Shown in pieces: positions 563-11,341 of a stretch of 20,566 nucleotides of DNA; position 1 is the first letter of the stretch; each line of letters starts with the position of its first letter. The DNA lies in IMG/VR virus record IMGVR_UViG_3300023444_000012, positions 1 through 20,566 of that record. The stretch is one strand, 5' to 3'. The stretch is from a virus. A program made the translations under genes and the position numbers. The notes beneath the pieces are model-generated. The model was not told the origin of the DNA, did no database searches, and saw only the letters and a program-made list of their open reading frames with translations.

Positions 563-2215
563 TTACGAGGCCCTCCCTAAGGTAGCCCATCTAGGGTTCT
601 TTACATCTCCTACAAACTTATCTAACTTCTCCTGTAGTATCTGTGCCTTATATTCCTTCTTAGCCTCATCAACATCTACACCAACAGTATCTGTGATAGC
701 TGCAACAGCCATAGCTAAGGCATCTAACCTATCATCGTGTCGTAGACAACCTCTAGTACGAGTTATATGTGTTAACTGGTACATTAGGGAATACTGTAAG
801 GCCTGTGGGTCCTGTAAGGCTCCCTCTACATCTTCCTTCACCATATCTAAGTTAAATACAAGCTTATGTGTATTCATCAATGGCTCTAAGGTATCAATGA
901 TGCGTAGCTCCTTCTGCTTAGATGAGCGTACTTCTTCTATACTTGCTGGGTGTACCTGCTTAAGAATAGGGCGTAATAGCTCATTAAACATACCATCACC
1001 GAAGTTATTCTCAATATAAATAGTATTAACCTTATAGCGCTTAGCTATATTAGCTAGTATAAATAGATTATCCTCAGTATAACCACCCTGTAAACCTCTA
1101 CACTCCATAATGTAGATACGGCCGTGTAAATACTTCAATACAGTGTAACCCATCTCGTCACTACCTCTACCTGAGGGATCAATAGACATAATACTGTATT
1201 GGTAATCAGCATGCTCTTTATCTATGTATTGTGGTTGGTGCAGCGCATCGCCCGTGAAGCCTATATTAGGCACATCGACTAGTGTTTCCCTTCCCCCACC
1301 ATAAGATAGCCCTATAGGTGCCTTATCGTCATCCAGAGGCATCACTATTAGATCCTCTTGTTTCAGTGGATACTTATCAGCATCACTAAGGGATGTATCT
1401 AATTGGTATTGTAGGCGATAGTATGACTTACCTACAGAACCCTCTCTTTCTAGTAGATCCTCGTGGGAGAACCTAATATCTGTTACAGAGCCTGCAGGTA
1501 GACCCATCTCTTCTATGTAAGGTGCTAAGCGCCCACCATACAACTCTACTTTCTCTGGGACTCTACTAGGCCAAATGCGCACTAAGAAACCCTTATCGAT
1601 GAACCTATTGTATACGCTATCGCCTGTTTGTGGAGTGCCTAGTCCTACAATAGAAGCATCTTCATTAGTTTGTAGGATACTATCAAATTCATTGATCTGT
1701 TGTAGTATCTTAGCCCTCATAACTTCAGTAGCACTATTAATAGAGGTCTCTACATCGTCGGCAATAAGGAGAGAGGCGCGATTACCCTGTAGTTGTGAGG
1801 TAATACCTAAACACTTAACACTAGGTTGTACTGTAGCTTGACAACCAGCAACATCAAAAGCCATAACAGAGTTTCGTTGATCTGGTCCTGGGCGTAGGTG
1901 TGCTAGTAGGGGTATCTCACCTAATAACTTATGAATAAATGTACTAATTGCAATAGCGTGAGAGCCTGAGGCAGATACAATAAGCACCTTCTCATTAGGA
2001 TTGCGTAACAACCTCCAAGTAGCATAAGCACCTGTTAGGTATGTCTTTCCAACACCACGGAATGCCTCAATAAGTAATCTTCTATTACCCTCTTGTAGCG
2101 TAGCACATATATCTTTCTGTAGTGGTGTAGCATTAGGTAACCCGATGTTACCCCACACATAATCTACATAGTCTGCAAAAGAGCCTACTAGCCCTTGTAT
2201 TTCTTGTTCATTCAT
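563..2215 (-). CDS. terL: Terminase large subunit (DNA packaging ATPase/nuclease)
   Basis: This is the motor and endonuclease that drives DNA into the prohead and cuts concatemers, related to T7 gp19 (550 residues here, about 586 in T7). The N-terminal ATPase has a Walker A loop, FRGVGKT, at residues 52-58 and a Walker B strand, LLIADD, near 149-154. The C-terminal RNase H-like nuclease shows its three acidic positions: D346 in SIDPSGRG, E402 in IYIEN and the RHDDRLDA motif at 492-499. It starts at ATG 2213-2215, and this ATG overlaps the stop of the PhoH-like gene by one base, which implies translational coupling. It is the last gene of the late operon. All catalytic motifs appear intact. 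Confidence 0.96.
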   Translation of the reverse strand: MNEQEIQGLVGSFADYVDYVWGNIGLPNATPLQKDICATLQEGNRRLLIEAFRGVGKTYLTGAYATWRLLRNPNEKVLIVSASGSHAIAISTFIHKLLGEIPLLAHLRPGPDQRNSVMAFDVAGCQATVQPSVKCLGITSQLQGNRASLLIADDVETSINSATEVMRAKILQQINEFDSILQTNEDASIVGLGTPQTGDSVYNRFIDKGFLVRIWPSRVPEKVELYGGRLAPYIEEMGLPAGSVTDIRFSHEDLLEREGSVGKSYYRLQYQLDTSLSDADKYPLKQEDLIVMPLDDDKAPIGLSYGGGRETLVDVPNIGFTGDALHQPQYIDKEHADYQYSIMSIDPSGRGSDEMGYTVLKYLHGRIYIMECRGLQGGYTEDNLFILANIAKRYKVNTIYIENNFGDGMFNELLRPILKQVHPASIEEVRSSKQKELRIIDTLEPLMNTHKLVFNLDMVKEDVEGALQDPQALQYSLMYQLTHITRTRGCLRHDDRLDALAMAVAAITDTVGVDVDEAKKEYKAQILQEKLDKFVGDVKNPRWATLGRAS

Positions 2216-2913
2216 TAGTACCCCTCGTAGTAACGTTCACTCCGCGTAATAATATAATCTCTTACAATACCACTACGCACAATGTCTTCCATCTTAAAGT
2301 CTGTTGTGTGAAAGTATTCCTTCATGTCCTGCAAGACCTTAATAAATTTTTGTATATTCTTGTCTCTCTCGCGTGTAAAGTCACTCTGTAAGAAATCGCC
2401 ACAGAATAATATACGGCTATTTTGACCTAACCGAGTCATAATACTATCGGCCTCGTGTGCAGTCATATTTTGAAATTCATCAACAACGACAACACTATTA
2501 TCTAAGGTTATGCCTCTAATATAGGAGGTAGTTAAGAAGCGTATAACTCCATGCTTCTTTAGTAAACCATAAGCATCACCTCTCCCAAATAGATCTGTAC
2601 ATATTTGTTGATAAGGCAGCTCATACACTTCGTTCTTTTCTTCTAAGGTACCAGGCAAGAATCCTACATCTCTACTAGGCACAGCTGATCTCACAATAAT
2701 AACTTGTTGCTTCTTAGACTCTAATAAATCTGTGAAAGCCTTGTGCAGCGCTAAGAATGTTTTACCTGTGCCTGGGTAACCTAAGAGCAGATGCTGTGAT
2801 GTATCTGTCCAGGCATCAAAGAATGTACCTTGAGACTCTGTAAGAGGCTCTATTGCCTTCAATTCCAGGTTAAGTTTATTTAATGTATTGCTCTTCTTTT
2901 TTTGTCGAGACAT
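2215..2913 (-). CDS. PhoH-like P-loop ATPase
   Basis: A 232-residue protein of the PhoH family of cytoplasmic P-loop NTPases. Walker A is GYPGTGKT at residues 45-52. The family signature RDVGFLPGTLEEK is at 81-93, Walker B VVVVDE at 141-146 and a GDFLQSD element near 172-178. The family fold is related to helicase-type ATPases and is sometimes tied to RNA metabolism; its role in phages is not established. I chose ATG 2911-2913 because it is the only ATG before the P-loop and has GGGG just upstream; a longer TTG version from 2946 would run back into the upstream gene. The gene sits directly before and overlaps the terminase gene, so it is made with packaging and lysis proteins rather than with replication genes. 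Confidence 0.9.
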   Translation of the reverse strand: MSRQKKKSNTLNKLNLELKAIEPLTESQGTFFDAWTDTSQHLLLGYPGTGKTFLALHKAFTDLLESKKQQVIIVRSAVPSRDVGFLPGTLEEKNEVYELPYQQICTDLFGRGDAYGLLKKHGVIRFLTTSYIRGITLDNSVVVVDEFQNMTAHEADSIMTRLGQNSRILFCGDFLQSDFTRERDKNIQKFIKVLQDMKEYFHTTDFKMEDIVRSGIVRDYIITRSERYYEGY

Positions 2914-2920
2914 ATTCCCC

Positions 2921-3319
2921 TTATCGTTTAGCCATGGAGTTACCAAAATAGAAACCCACCACAGACATAATAGCGTGTGGTAGCCACTCTGGGGTAACCA
3001 TTCCTTCTAGTGTAATGTACTCTGTTACTGTCTCTTTCCAGAATAGTAGGCCAGTAGTTACTTCCACTGGTACTACTGTAGGCAAATTAAAGAGTGGAGC
3101 GAAGAGGATGAAGTAAGCCATGCCTAAGAATGATAAGGTGATTGTCTTACGCATCCAAGAGGTATTAGGACTCTGCATCTCTCTGACTGCTGCCATCTGA
3201 CCTGCTCTGAAGTTCCTCTCATTAGCCAAATCTTGCTGACTATCTGATTGCATACGAATATAAGCACTACCTACTGTAGATATTAGCATCGTAACTATTT
3301 CCATTGGTAATCCAAACAT
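2921..3319 (-). CDS. Holin-like membrane protein with three hydrophobic segments
   Basis: A 132-residue protein with hydrophobic stretches near residues 4-20, 61-80 and 113-128 separated by charged segments. The layout resembles the three-segment holins found in phages and gene transfer agents, so it probably forms the membrane lesion in lysis. The ribosome site AAAGGAG lies six bases before the ATG and includes the last codons of the upstream gene. The neighbours fit a lysis cassette: a muralytic protein and a secreted protein precede it. The first hydrophobic segment is short and carries few charges, so topology is uncertain. It might instead be a membrane anchor for another function. Confidence 0.6.
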   Translation of the reverse strand: MFGLPMEIVTMLISTVGSAYIRMQSDSQQDLANERNFRAGQMAAVREMQSPNTSWMRKTITLSFLGMAYFILFAPLFNLPTVVPVEVTTGLLFWKETVTEYITLEGMVTPEWLPHAIMSVVGFYFGNSMAKR

Positions 3320-3322
3320 AAT

Positions 3323-3817
3323 TTACTCCTTTTCTAATTTGTCACAGCCCGCTATAACTTCAAACTTAGTGTTATTAGTACAGTCTTCTTTAAGCATATC
3401 TAACTCTAACTTCTTATCTTCTTCATCTAAAGGGTCTACTTCTTCCTCAGTTATCACTACTTCTTCCTTCTCTGTCACTACAGTCTTATGGTTTGCATAA
3501 GTACAGTGAAATACTTCGTGTCCTAAGATAGTTAATGCTTCTCTATCATCCCACATAGTAGTCTTAACCATATGTACGACACAGACATCACTAAACTCAG
3601 ATACGAAAGTAAAGCCTCTAACCTCACCTTCTGCTGTAGGAGCACCTTTCTTAAATGCTACCTGTAGTTCTTCAAAAGTATCATAGAAGACTAGCTTGAG
3701 TACAAATCCTGCCCTTCCTACTTCTATCTTATCCTCAGGACCATACCTATATAAGTCAAAGTCATCTAGTGCTAGTACGTTAAGCGCCAATAGGGAAGCA
3801 AATAAGAACTTTATCAT
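3323..3817 (-). CDS. Secreted protein with HExxH (metalloprotease-like) motif
   Basis: A 164-residue protein beginning with a typical signal sequence (MIKFLFASLLALNVLA, cut likely near residue 17) and no lipobox cysteine. A GHEVFH motif at 99-104 supplies HExxH at 100-104, and H110 has the spacing of a third zinc ligand (HExxHxxxxxH). Four cysteines (79, 105, 146, 158) could form disulphides in the periplasm. Residues 116-145 are strongly acidic and probably flexible. The ATG overlaps the stop of the muralytic gene by four bases or fewer, and the next gene is holin-like. Protease activity in the envelope is an inference from the motif; a spanin-like structural role is an alternative. Confidence 0.6.
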   Translation of the reverse strand: MIKFLFASLLALNVLALDDFDLYRYGPEDKIEVGRAGFVLKLVFYDTFEELQVAFKKGAPTAEGEVRGFTFVSEFSDVCVVHMVKTTMWDDREALTILGHEVFHCTYANHKTVVTEKEEVVITEEEVDPLDEEDKKLELDMLKEDCTNNTKFEVIAGCDKLEKE

Positions 3818-4302
3818 CTCTTCTCCATCTCCATACCTTTCTTAAGAATTGCATCAGTATAGTAGTCTAAACTATCGGGACCACCCTCGTGCTTTGTAAT
3901 AGCCTTCACTAATCTAAACATATGAGACTCTTTAATAGGGGCATCACGATCTAGACCAACATCAAACATGACATCTCTAATGTAGGCTTCGGTATTATTC
4001 TCTTTACCATTAGGTGCATACACTGGAAGTATTTGCCCGATAGTAGTAAGACCACGCGCTATCTTTGATCTTAAATCCCGAGTGAGGGCTCTAGCACCCC
4101 ATGTAGGTCCTTCAAAAATAGGAAAGCGCCCTTCGGCTACCTTACCCCCAGGGTCAAACTCACCAGTCATCCCATCCCAGTTAATGTTAGCATCCTTGAT
4201 ATTACCAGGATTATTATTACGCACATTTCTAGCTATTTTAGGGGCCTTCTTTGCTGCTGTCTGCTTCTCACGTATAATCTTTAATTCATCTAAAGCGCTC
4301 AA
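3814..4302 (-). CDS. P5-type muralytic (lysozyme-like) protein, candidate endolysin
   Basis: A 162-residue protein of the group often labelled structural protein P5 or virion lysozyme. It shows RNNNPGNIK at residues 28-36, a segment with F..GPTWGARALTRDLR near 63-78, GLTTIGQILPVYAP at 84-97 and ENNTEAYI at 101-108. These are the conserved blocks of that family, presumed to cleave peptidoglycan. It starts with TTG at 4300-4302: TAGGAG lies seven bases upstream, and the next in-frame ATG would delete the conserved N-terminal block. The TTG overlaps the TGA of the small terminase. No signal peptide is seen, so release would need the holin downstream, or the protein travels in the virion. Confidence 0.75.
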   Translation of the reverse strand: MSALDELKIIREKQTAAKKAPKIARNVRNNNPGNIKDANINWDGMTGEFDPGGKVAEGRFPIFEGPTWGARALTRDLRSKIARGLTTIGQILPVYAPNGKENNTEAYIRDVMFDVGLDRDAPIKESHMFRLVKAITKHEGGPDSLDYYTDAILKKGMEMEKR

Positions 4303-4538
4303 TGTAGGTCTCCTAGTAGCTTCTCTTCATTATCTAAGAAGTTTTGTATTAAATTGGCCATAGGCTTCGACTCAATTACATCAGCCGTAATCTCGTTGTC
4401 CTTTAAGAACTTAAGTGCTGCTGATAACTCCCCAGGAGCTAATCTTTCTCCTGAGGCAATTAATTGTGTAAAGTATGTAGCTATTTGATCGTGAAGACTA
4501 TTAAGTACTTCAATATCTGCTTTCTTGCTAATAGACAT
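4299..4538 (-). CDS. terS: Terminase small subunit, gp18-like
   Basis: A 79-residue, mainly helical protein that should recognise DNA ends and recruit the large terminase; T7 gp18 is 89 residues. Residues 38-55 include the segment LSAALKFLKDNEI, typical of the small terminases of marine T7-like podoviruses, and the chain ends with an acidic helix. I prefer ATG 4536-4538, with AAAGGAG placed seven bases upstream. The extra upstream residues of a longer frame would encode the ribosome site itself (Arg/Lys-rich). The ATG overlaps the TAA of the gp16-like gene by one base. The position before the lysis genes parallels gp18 before 18.5 in T7. Confidence 0.75.
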   Translation of the reverse strand: MSISKKADIEVLNSLHDQIATYFTQLIASGERLAPGELSAALKFLKDNEITADVIESKPMANLIQNFLDNEEKLLGDLH

Positions 4539-7500
4539 TATTCTGCTCCTTTTTCTAACCAAGTATCGTATAAGCCTTCTCGCTGGTTCCGTAAAGTACC
4601 AATCTTCTCCATCAAGTCTGCCTTTAATTCTTTTAAACGGTCAGGGTTTCTTTTTATGTATAACTTCTTAACTTTGTTTTTCTGGTCAGCAAAGTATGAT
4701 TTTATAGCATGCTTTTTAGTTCCCTTTTTGTCAAAGTCAATACCATCTGGCATATTCTTATACTTAGAAGAGGTAATGAGTTTATCTAGTCTCTCTTCAA
4801 TATGCGCGTGACTATCTAGTAGCCTGCGCATCTTCCAGTGGTCCTCAGCTTCTAACTGAATTTCAGCACTTTCAAACATAATCCTATCATCCATCTTACC
4901 AATATTCATTTTTAGACGCATTAACTCCTCTCTAATAGGCGTATTTTTAGGCTCACGCGTACGCATGCCTAAGAAAGAAGTAAGTGTTTGTGACTTACCA
5001 AAGATGTCTAGTTGGTCTCTAAGAGTATCTGGGGCAAATCTCTTTTTAACTTGCTCAAATAAACCTATAGCTTCCTTCAAGTTATCGCCTTCACCATTTT
5101 GTACAAAGTTAGCTAAAGAACTAAATGGTATAAAGGTAGCAGCAGTCTTCTCAGCATACTTTGGATTCTCACCTTTTGTCCAACTTAGTAGCTCATCAAA
5201 TGATTTCATCCACATCTTATTAACAATTTGATTACTGAAGCCCACGACTAAGGCACCAGTAAGTTCATCTAAGTTTTCTTGGTAACCTTCTACATTGTTT
5301 AAACCGCGTCTTTCCATATCAGTAATAAACATATTTATTTCCGCGGCAAGTCCTAAGAAAGTACCTACTGGGTCTAAGCCATTAAATGGTACCCATTCTT
5401 CTGTAAAGGGGTTGTAGATGCTGTTTTCAGCAATACCTGCAGCCTTCCATGCTGCTCTTTCATTCGCAGGAGCACTACCAGTTATCATACCGTTGTAAGC
5501 TAACATACCTGATATAGCATACAGAGAAGAACCCATAACTAAACGCGATTCTGCTAGCGCTTTTCTTCGCCCACCTGCAGCAATATCATCCATCATACGT
5601 TGAGATAACTTATGTAAGCCTGGAGTTCTTCTGCCTACCCACTTCATTAGATTTACAGGTGTTCTATAGAATGGAATAACCCATTGTCCACCGGGGATAG
5701 CTTTAATAGCTTTATCAATATGATATAAACCTTTATTAATGCCATTGCCATCATGCAGTCTTAACTCTTCCTGGAAAGTGCCTTCACGCGAGCGTTCAAT
5801 TGCCTCTGTGTGCCACTTACCTTTATTAGGTGCAATATATTTCTTAATTAAGGCTTGCTCTGCTTCTGATAAAGCGTCTGCGCCCTTACCTTTTAAGAAT
5901 AAAGCCTCGTGTGCTGCATAAAATTCTTTAATGAAATTTTGTTTTTCAACACCTTGTAGACCTCTAATATTAGCTTCTCTAGTACCAATATATTTAATCT
6001 CACTACCATAGATAACACGTTTAAACATATCGTCGGTAATACCTAATGCTTGGTATGGTGTCCTAATTAAAGCACCAATACCATCAATAGTTTGACCTAC
6101 AAATTGACGTATAGGAGTGTCTGTGTTAGAAAGTAAGTACTCTTTACTAATTGCGCGATAAGAACCTGTGTCATACTTTTGATAAAAGTCTAAGTAACCT
6201 TCTTCTAACGCATCCTCATAAGCTTTGGTACCTTTTGGCAACTGCTGAATAGCTTTAAAAAACCCCTTAACAGTCTCATAGGATTGGTGTAGACTTCCAT
6301 GTGTTAGTGCCTCGATCTCATCACTTTTAAAGCGGTCTACATCATTGCGCATTTTGCCAATAACGCCAGCCATACGGTATTCTAAGTTAGAAGCCTTACG
6401 TACAAAGTAGTTACCTGCTATATTTCGTCCTAAAGTTACCGGTCCAGATAGTAAAGAGGTTAAGCGTACCTCAGTTAATACATTAATAGTTTTCTTTAAC
6501 CAGTGATCCTTTTTATCTAAGCCCTTCATAACGCGGTGTAGAGTTATATCGCTCTCAACATCAACTACACCTTTTAATAACTTATGAATCTTCTTAGCTG
6601 TTACATCATTAATAATCTTATCTGCTTCCATCTTTAAAACGTCGGGAGCAGTTTCAGCAATCTCATCTAGCTTTTCTAACACTGCCTTAGGAAAAATCTC
6701 AATACGTCCTGCAGAAGTAACACGCGCACCACCTTGTTGTAGTGACTTAGCACCTGCAGTTAATATGTGCAGCGTTTGTAATTCACGTAGACCATTAAGT
6801 AGTGCCACTTTGTCTGTAGCATCTGGAGCATCCTTAACAATTTGGCTTAGGTGTTCTAAACGCCCTGACATAGCTCTTTTTAATACAATAAGCTGCGCAT
6901 CTAGCTTTTGAGCGTCCTTAACAGTCTTTGTAGCTAACTCAAGTGTGCCATCAAACCCTAACTTTTTTTCTAAAGCCTTAGCTTGCTTAACAGTAATATC
7001 GTGAGGTTTAACACCAGTCTTAGCAAATTTGATAAAGTCTTGACTCTTAGTAATATTCTCTAAGATGTATTGTGCTTCATCGTGTAGACTCTCATCTAAG
7101 CCCTTAAGAATCTTCTCGTAGTTAAATGCAACTTCTGGTGGTTTAACGCCATCAACTGTAACCACTGTTTCTTCAAATTTTGCTTTAGTAAAACCCTCTG
7201 GTTGTGGGTTAACAATATCATCAGTCTTAGGCTTTGGTAGTAATTCACCAGCTTCGTGCATATCATCCACCGCTTGTGCTACAGCGTCTGGGTTATCATG
7301 CTTAGCCCAAAGCTTCTCTTTAGCACCACGATAAATCTTAGTAATATTTAATAGTACATCAACACTAACGCCTAAGCCTATACCCTCTAGCGCATGCTTA
7401 AACTTATCTTCAAACACACTATCATTAGGGTCTGATTTTAAATAATTAACAACCACATTGTCTACACCGTGATCAGCGAGCATAGTAGTTAGCCTACCAT

Positions 7501-11080: not shown

Positions 11081-11341
11081 TTAATTATCACACTTACCGC
11101 CCATCTTACTAAAGAGCTTACCAATAAGAGATTTAATCTCAGAGATGTCCTCTTTAATATCTGCCTTGAACTCTTTCTGTTCTTGGTGATAATCTTCCTT
11201 AAGTACATAAGTATGTGGTAGGCTCTGCTTACAAGTATTATGCTCCTTCTGAATATCCTTGAGGTCCTGTGAGATACTATGAAGGAAATACCCTAGCATC
11301 GTGACCATTATTGTTAATCCATATAATCCTATATCTTCCAT
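11081..11341 (-). CDS. Membrane-anchored coiled-coil protein (spanin/XhlA-like layout)
   Basis: An 86-residue protein with an N-terminal transmembrane helix at residues 5-24 and a charged helical region from 25 to 78, with Lys/Glu/Asp in heptad-like spacing, then GGKCDN at the C-terminus. This plan is common among phage proteins described as XhlA-like or as inner-membrane spanins. The ribosome site AAGGA lies eight bases before the ATG. It stands apart from the main lysis genes at 2.9-4.3 kb. Role in lysis is possible but only inferred from architecture. Confidence 0.65.
   Translation of the reverse strand: MEDIGLYGLTIMVTMLGYFLHSISQDLKDIQKEHNTCKQSLPHTYVLKEDYHQEQKEFKADIKEDISEIKSLIGKLFSKMGGKCDN

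Follow-up and report, generated by a model that had tools for sequence, protein, structure and literature searches.

A Conserved Phage Family of Predicted Exported Minimal Zincins Encoded near Putative Lysis Genes

RESULTS

A predicted secreted zincin is encoded between muralytic and holin-like genes

The window, the whole 20,566-nucleotide stretch analyzed here, is a 20.6-kb virus record from IMG/VR. It comes from a marine T7-like phage; the products identified include a gp13-like protein, a small terminase (PF11123), a T7-type large terminase (PF22530), and PhoH (Table 1). The gene of interest shares 4 nt with the muralytic gene upstream of it, and a 3-nt gap separates it from the 3TM gene, in agreement with its earlier placement in a lysis cassette. 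The muralytic gene has no Pfam match, and its assignment rests on one PHROG. In the product of the 3TM gene, three hydrophobic segments are visible by eye and two 19-mers exceed the hydropathy cutoff. In Roseobacter phages CRP-5 and CRP-603, relatives of this protein are encoded directly 3' of a gene for a lytic transglycosylase or a cell-wall hydrolase, a gene order that fits a holin-like role. The 3TM proteins of Pelagibacter phage Skadi (L117:2501-2932) are named "peptidase M15" despite their 3TM holin-like sequence; because the name is attached to the 3TM protein and not to a neighbor, it is probably an annotation error, and we did not use it as evidence. The window also encodes a protein with a TM segment plus a coiled coil (11081-11341), distant from the endolysin gene. 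A simple scan of the coding strand of this 20.6-kb fragment, which is not a whole genome, revealed no lipobox open reading frame (ORF) that could be a classical o-spanin.

TABLE 1 Features of the window and of the protein encoded at 3323-3817
Feature	Position	Strand	Basis or remark
Large terminase subunit (T7 type)	563..2215	-	PF22530, E 7.3e-41
PhoH-like ATPase gene	2215..2946	-	PF02562, E 1.1e-42
Holin-like membrane protein gene (3TM), 132 aa	2921..3319	-	phrog_38283, E 0.0017
Secreted minimal zincin gene (predicted)	3323..3817	-	ATG start, 164 aa; 58 relatives; conservation
Acidic C-terminal tail, residues 111-164, with predicted helix 129-148	3326..3487	-	Tail missing from short homologues
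Zincin-like core, residues 17-112, b-a-b-b-a	3482..3769	-	AlphaFold2 model
HExxHxxxxxH, residues 100-110 (HEVFHCTYANH)	3488..3520	-	H100, E101, H104, C105, H110 invariant where covered
Cys105, beside ligand H104 on active-site helix (predicted)	3503..3505	-	Invariant
WDDRE, residues 89-93, N terminus of active-site helix	3539..3553	-	Identical in 46/46
Cys79, likely disulfide partner of Cys105 (pairing inferred)	3581..3583	-	Invariant in near and distant relatives
Signal peptide, residues 1-16 (MIKFLFASLLALNVLA), AxA-type cleavage before LDDF	3770..3817	-	N-terminal hydrophobicity in 43/46 homologues; Ala before conserved LDD in nearly all
Upstream muralytic (endolysin-like) gene, 162 aa	3814..4302	-	phrog_873 "endolysin," E 8.8e-32
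Small terminase subunit (DNA_Packaging_2)	4299..4562	-	PF11123, E 3e-13
TM plus coiled-coil protein, weak i-spanin-like candidate, 86 aa	11081..11341	-	phrog_7686 Rz-like spanin, E 0.022; phrog_462 "lipoprotein," E 1.6e-8

A preliminary description, made from the sequence alone, had reported a signal peptide, the HExxHxxxxxH spacing with Tyr in place of the metzincin Gly, four cysteines, and an acidic tail, and all of these readings held. The hydrophobic residues 1 to 16 end in VLA, followed by LDDF; this is an AxA signal peptidase I site without a lipobox, and we therefore rejected the idea that the window protein is the lipoprotein o-subunit of a spanin. The cysteines are C79 and C105, which occur family-wide, and C146 and C158, which are confined to the closest relatives. 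Acidic residues prevail over the whole protein (36 D+E versus 18 K+R). Among the ∼6,400 residues of protein encoded in the window, HExxH occurs once; 0.10 occurrences of HExxH and 0.0014 of HExxHxxxxxH are expected by chance in the window. This expectation, together with conservation of the motif in every homologue covering the site, rules out a chance motif.

The protein belongs to a strictly conserved family

The window protein as the query retrieved five relatives from IMG/VR, and profile scans of the same database extended the set to 58 loci, later to one more, plus a distant group described below. The 46 nonredundant proteins all keep W89-DDRE, C79, G99, H100, E101, H104, C105, and H110 wherever these positions are covered, and they share an invariant or nearly invariant LDDFDL after the signal peptide. 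Homologues lacking HExxH, which would have spoken against the proposed enzyme, were looked for, and none was found among those covering the site; the catalytic Glu (E101) is kept in every near and distant member that does. Export signals are present in 43 of the 46 and usually end in AxA before LDD, with a lipobox instead of the AxA site in L049, L050, and L053. The Gly of the metzincin motif is limited to a few members, including L002 (HEVLHCLGANH), L009 (HEILHCLGANH), L056 (HEILHCTGAVH), L105, and the protein of phage Rb1.

Searches of GTDB genomes and of cultured phages with the window protein and its close homologues found no further members of the close family, and Pfam, PHROGs, and PDB sequence profiles gave no convincing family match for the window protein. 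Weak, subthreshold zincin echoes around HExxH came from PhageMetallopep (PF18894; best E value, 0.0071) and peptidase M48 (PF01435; best E value, 0.0083), neither shown to reach its curated cutoff; the M48 score of the window protein is 11.9 bits, below the Pfam cutoff of 20.3. M48 enzymes are larger and have a helix with a Glu ligand. The window protein and its close relatives make up a strictly conserved family that had no name before, and its members are probable zinc proteases.

The predicted core resembles a minimal zincin with a third histidine ligand

An AlphaFold2 model built with 37 sequences has a pLDDT of >90 over most of residues 37 to 106. The confidently predicted core runs b-a-b-b-a, with HExxH on the last helix and the invariant H110 close behind that helix, a layout like that of a minimal zincin. 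Its placement of HExxH on a helix, along with the invariant catalytic Glu, is a feature of the zincin superfamily, within which the window protein and its relatives appear to form a new, uncharacterized phage family.

Foldseek searches of a viral library returned two close uncharacterized phage proteins (E values, 8.5e-6 and 9.4e-4), with SprT, PolyVal, and IrrE metalloproteins lower and weak. Against the PDB, neither the full-length nor the core model had a significant match; the top query TM-score among the PDB matches listed, 0.41 for 1oz9 (AQ_1354), is not significant (E value, 0.88). We take AQ_1354 to be a member of the YbeY family, which shares a small zincin-like fold; YbeY proteins are cytoplasmic and carry HxxxHxxxxxH. 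The best PDB sequence-profile match, MJ1213 (PDB 4qhf), aligns HELLHLKYGKYH with the family motif and is likewise not significant (E value, 0.16). MJ1213, presumably the minigluzincin projannalysin, is also a single-domain HExxH protein of ∼100 residues but is archaeal and soluble. In minigluzincins, the third ligand is a downstream Glu, which is impossible for the short members of the window family.

Several family proteins terminate 0 to 10 residues past the third His and therefore lack both a Met-turn and a Glu ligand further downstream. In the long members, the window protein included, a conserved Glu (E138) lies on a C-terminal helix; this helix is missing from the short members, and the Glu therefore cannot be a family-wide ligand. 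HExxH plus the third His is the simplest site common to all members, and H110 is the likely third ligand, with some room left for a Glu ligand (E138) in the long members. No conserved Met follows the third His in family members, and the suggestion that the spacing points to metzincins was accordingly dropped for want of a Met-turn. A gluzincin or M48 assignment was not supported for the family as a whole, given the lack of a family-wide downstream Glu ligand and the score below the Pfam cutoff.

Family genes are found near holin-like, DUF1353, and coiled-coil genes

To describe the gene neighborhood, we counted genes at the 27 nonredundant loci that have three or more genes on either side of the family gene. 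At 22 of these, a 3TM holin-like, DUF1353, or TM-plus-coiled-coil gene lies at most four genes away on the same strand; by type, 3TM genes were found at 11 loci, DUF1353 genes at 12, TM-plus-coiled-coil genes at 12, and a small MscS-like gene at 9. One 3TM protein family recurs within six genes at 27 of the 59 loci, across unrelated phages. PhoH, terminase, and portal genes are likewise among the neighbors.

At four loci (L049 to L051 and L053), the family gene and a TM-plus-coiled-coil gene overlap by 4 nt, and this pair resembles an i-spanin/o-spanin pair; the coiled-coil gene of L049 has a weak Rz-like match (E value, 0.007).

DUF1353 proteins are encoded upstream of the HExxH gene at L016:4785-5369 and at 20 other loci. 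One DUF1353 protein, TtaP, has been shown to act as a phospholipase A2 and has a His/Asp dyad next to a further Asp (PMC11525133). The DUF1353 His-Asp motif, GL[VI]HD[YF], is retained in each of the 16 unique phage copies, and judging from this sequence the phage DUF1353 neighbors are possibly envelope phospholipases. At L035:633-1601, DUF1353 and the HExxH protein are read in a single frame without a break, and a signal-like segment lies inside it; this ORF could be a real fusion or reflect a lost stop codon, and we gave it no weight. A small MscS beta-domain protein (PF00924; E value, 1.6e-5), a putative phage mechanosensitive-channel-like protein, is encoded downstream of the HExxH gene at L009:2779-3129 and at 12 other loci.

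Distant relatives are mostly short lipoproteins

A search of IMG/VR from divergent members led to a set of short proteins, most of them lipoproteins, that carry GHExxHC together with a third His. A profile-profile comparison matched this distant group to the window family with a probability of 99% over 71 columns (E value, 2.3e-18). Across 27 aligned members, only C79, G-H-E, H, and C105 are invariant, with D91 nearly so; most of the distant group has a lipobox, and some lipoprotein relatives have one additional motif residue. Distant relatives occur in cultured phages, namely, Alteromonas phages V22 and PT15-A5, Xanthomonas phage Rb1, and phage C48C1, and on three contigs from bacterial genomes, Shewanella among them; the Alteromonas, Xanthomonas, and Shewanella carriers are phages or prophages. 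On the Shewanella contig, a 98-aa lipoprotein gene (L123:5950-6246) adjoins tail genes, and its product ends exactly on the third motif His. The lipoprotein relatives of V22 (L113:3791-4114) and PT15-A5 (L114:3890-4249), annotated as hypothetical, are encoded between the tail genes and the tail fibre gene, directly upstream of the latter; separate Rz-like proteins are encoded elsewhere in the region.

DISCUSSION

From the export signal, the invariant motif, and the gene neighborhood, as read in the sequences, and from the zincin-like core of the model, we infer that the window protein binds zinc, forms a disulfide, and cleaves a protein substrate; a possible role in lysis is suggested by the neighborhood only. 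Our preferred reading, which we hold tentatively, is that it is a periplasmic minimal zincin metalloprotease that acts at the end of infection and aids lysis. The protein would be made late, together with packaging and lysis genes, and exported via Sec, with the signal peptide removed before LDDF. A C79-C105 disulfide would probably lock it in the oxidizing periplasm, where H100, H104, and H110 would coordinate zinc and E101 would serve as the general base. It may then cleave one or more envelope proteins, such as a host protein of the outer membrane or one linked to peptidoglycan, or else a phage regulator of lysis, and the weakened envelope would allow endolysin and holin action to give complete lysis. 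The envelope metalloprotease proposed in the preliminary description thus survives in its export, predicted zincin-type core, family-wide catalytic residues, and envelope-gene setting, and loses its link to metzincins.

The closest experimentally tested precedent is Mtz of Listeria, a phage-derived secreted metzincin that acts on the envelope and, with a lipoprotein partner, sensitizes Listeria to phage lysis and requires its catalytic site to do so; the partner, the TIMP-like lipoprotein Tim, is cleaved by Mtz (PMC8235301). The window protein is likewise a phage-encoded, exported HExxH protein, a likeness of type. Mtz differs in its HExxHxxGxxH/D motif with a Met-turn, in its Gram-positive host, and in its TIMP-like partner, whereas the window family has no Met-turn and usually no Gly. 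Rz/Rz1 spanins share the envelope location, and some family relatives are lipoproteins whose genes overlap a TM-plus-coiled-coil gene; however, spanins are nonenzymatic and membrane fusing, and the window protein is not a lipoprotein and has a folded catalytic-type core. The case for action with or instead of spanins is circumstantial, since these overlaps in some relatives are set against the tail-fibre setting and the Rz-like proteins in others.

That tail-fibre setting would fit a different role, in which the exported protease would trim or inactivate a surface receptor or periplasmic protein during infection, sparing the infected cell or the released progeny from re-adsorption or competitors, and would have no direct part in lysis. 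The T5 llp gene adjoins its receptor-binding gene, and some relatives are placed alike: those in V22 and PT15-A5 immediately precede the gene for the receptor-binding tail fibre, and that on the Shewanella contig lies downstream of tail genes. However, the window gene and most close relatives adjoin muralytic, 3TM, DUF1353, or coiled-coil genes rather than fibres, and we consider such a superinfection block unlikely for the family.

The recurrent linkage to one 3TM family, and the Listeria enzyme that cleaves its own partner lipoprotein (PMC8235301), would suit a protease that sets the timing of lysis or assembly by maturing or degrading one of the phage's own membrane or virion proteins, for example a holin, an antiholin, or an internal protein; but no partner is conserved at all loci, many of which have no 3TM gene, making this role doubtful. 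Still less probable is a second peptidoglycan hydrolase, which would cut peptide cross-links and complement the upstream muralytic enzyme. The direct 4-nt overlap with the muralytic gene and the periplasmic location would suit that substrate, but the protein does not resemble the known peptidoglycan peptidases, M15, M23, and M74 among them, and to our knowledge HExxHxxxxxH is not the metal-site pattern of any of these, which also counts against it. An envelope protein that binds metal without being a protease, for example a structural lipoprotein dependent on zinc, would accord with the very small core, the short members without the C-terminal subdomain, and the absence of a PDB fold match, but it is very improbable, as structure alone would not demand a catalytic Glu that is invariant near and far.

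The preferred reading, a periplasmic protease that aids lysis, can be extended to a broader proposal that we regard as unlikely in its full form: in phages of Gram-negative marine bacteria, periplasmic or lipoprotein minimal zincins may be an enzymatic third lysis factor that, along with a DUF1353 phospholipase, would proteolyze outer-membrane attachment and replace membrane-fusing spanins. The question of how phages without spanins disrupt the outer membrane has been posed explicitly (PMC6139136). A family of putative exported proteases, with its genes linked to those for holin-like and phospholipase-like proteins, is a concrete candidate for this step, and it provides a hypothesis for the function of proteins labeled hypothetical in cultured Alteromonas and Xanthomonas phages.
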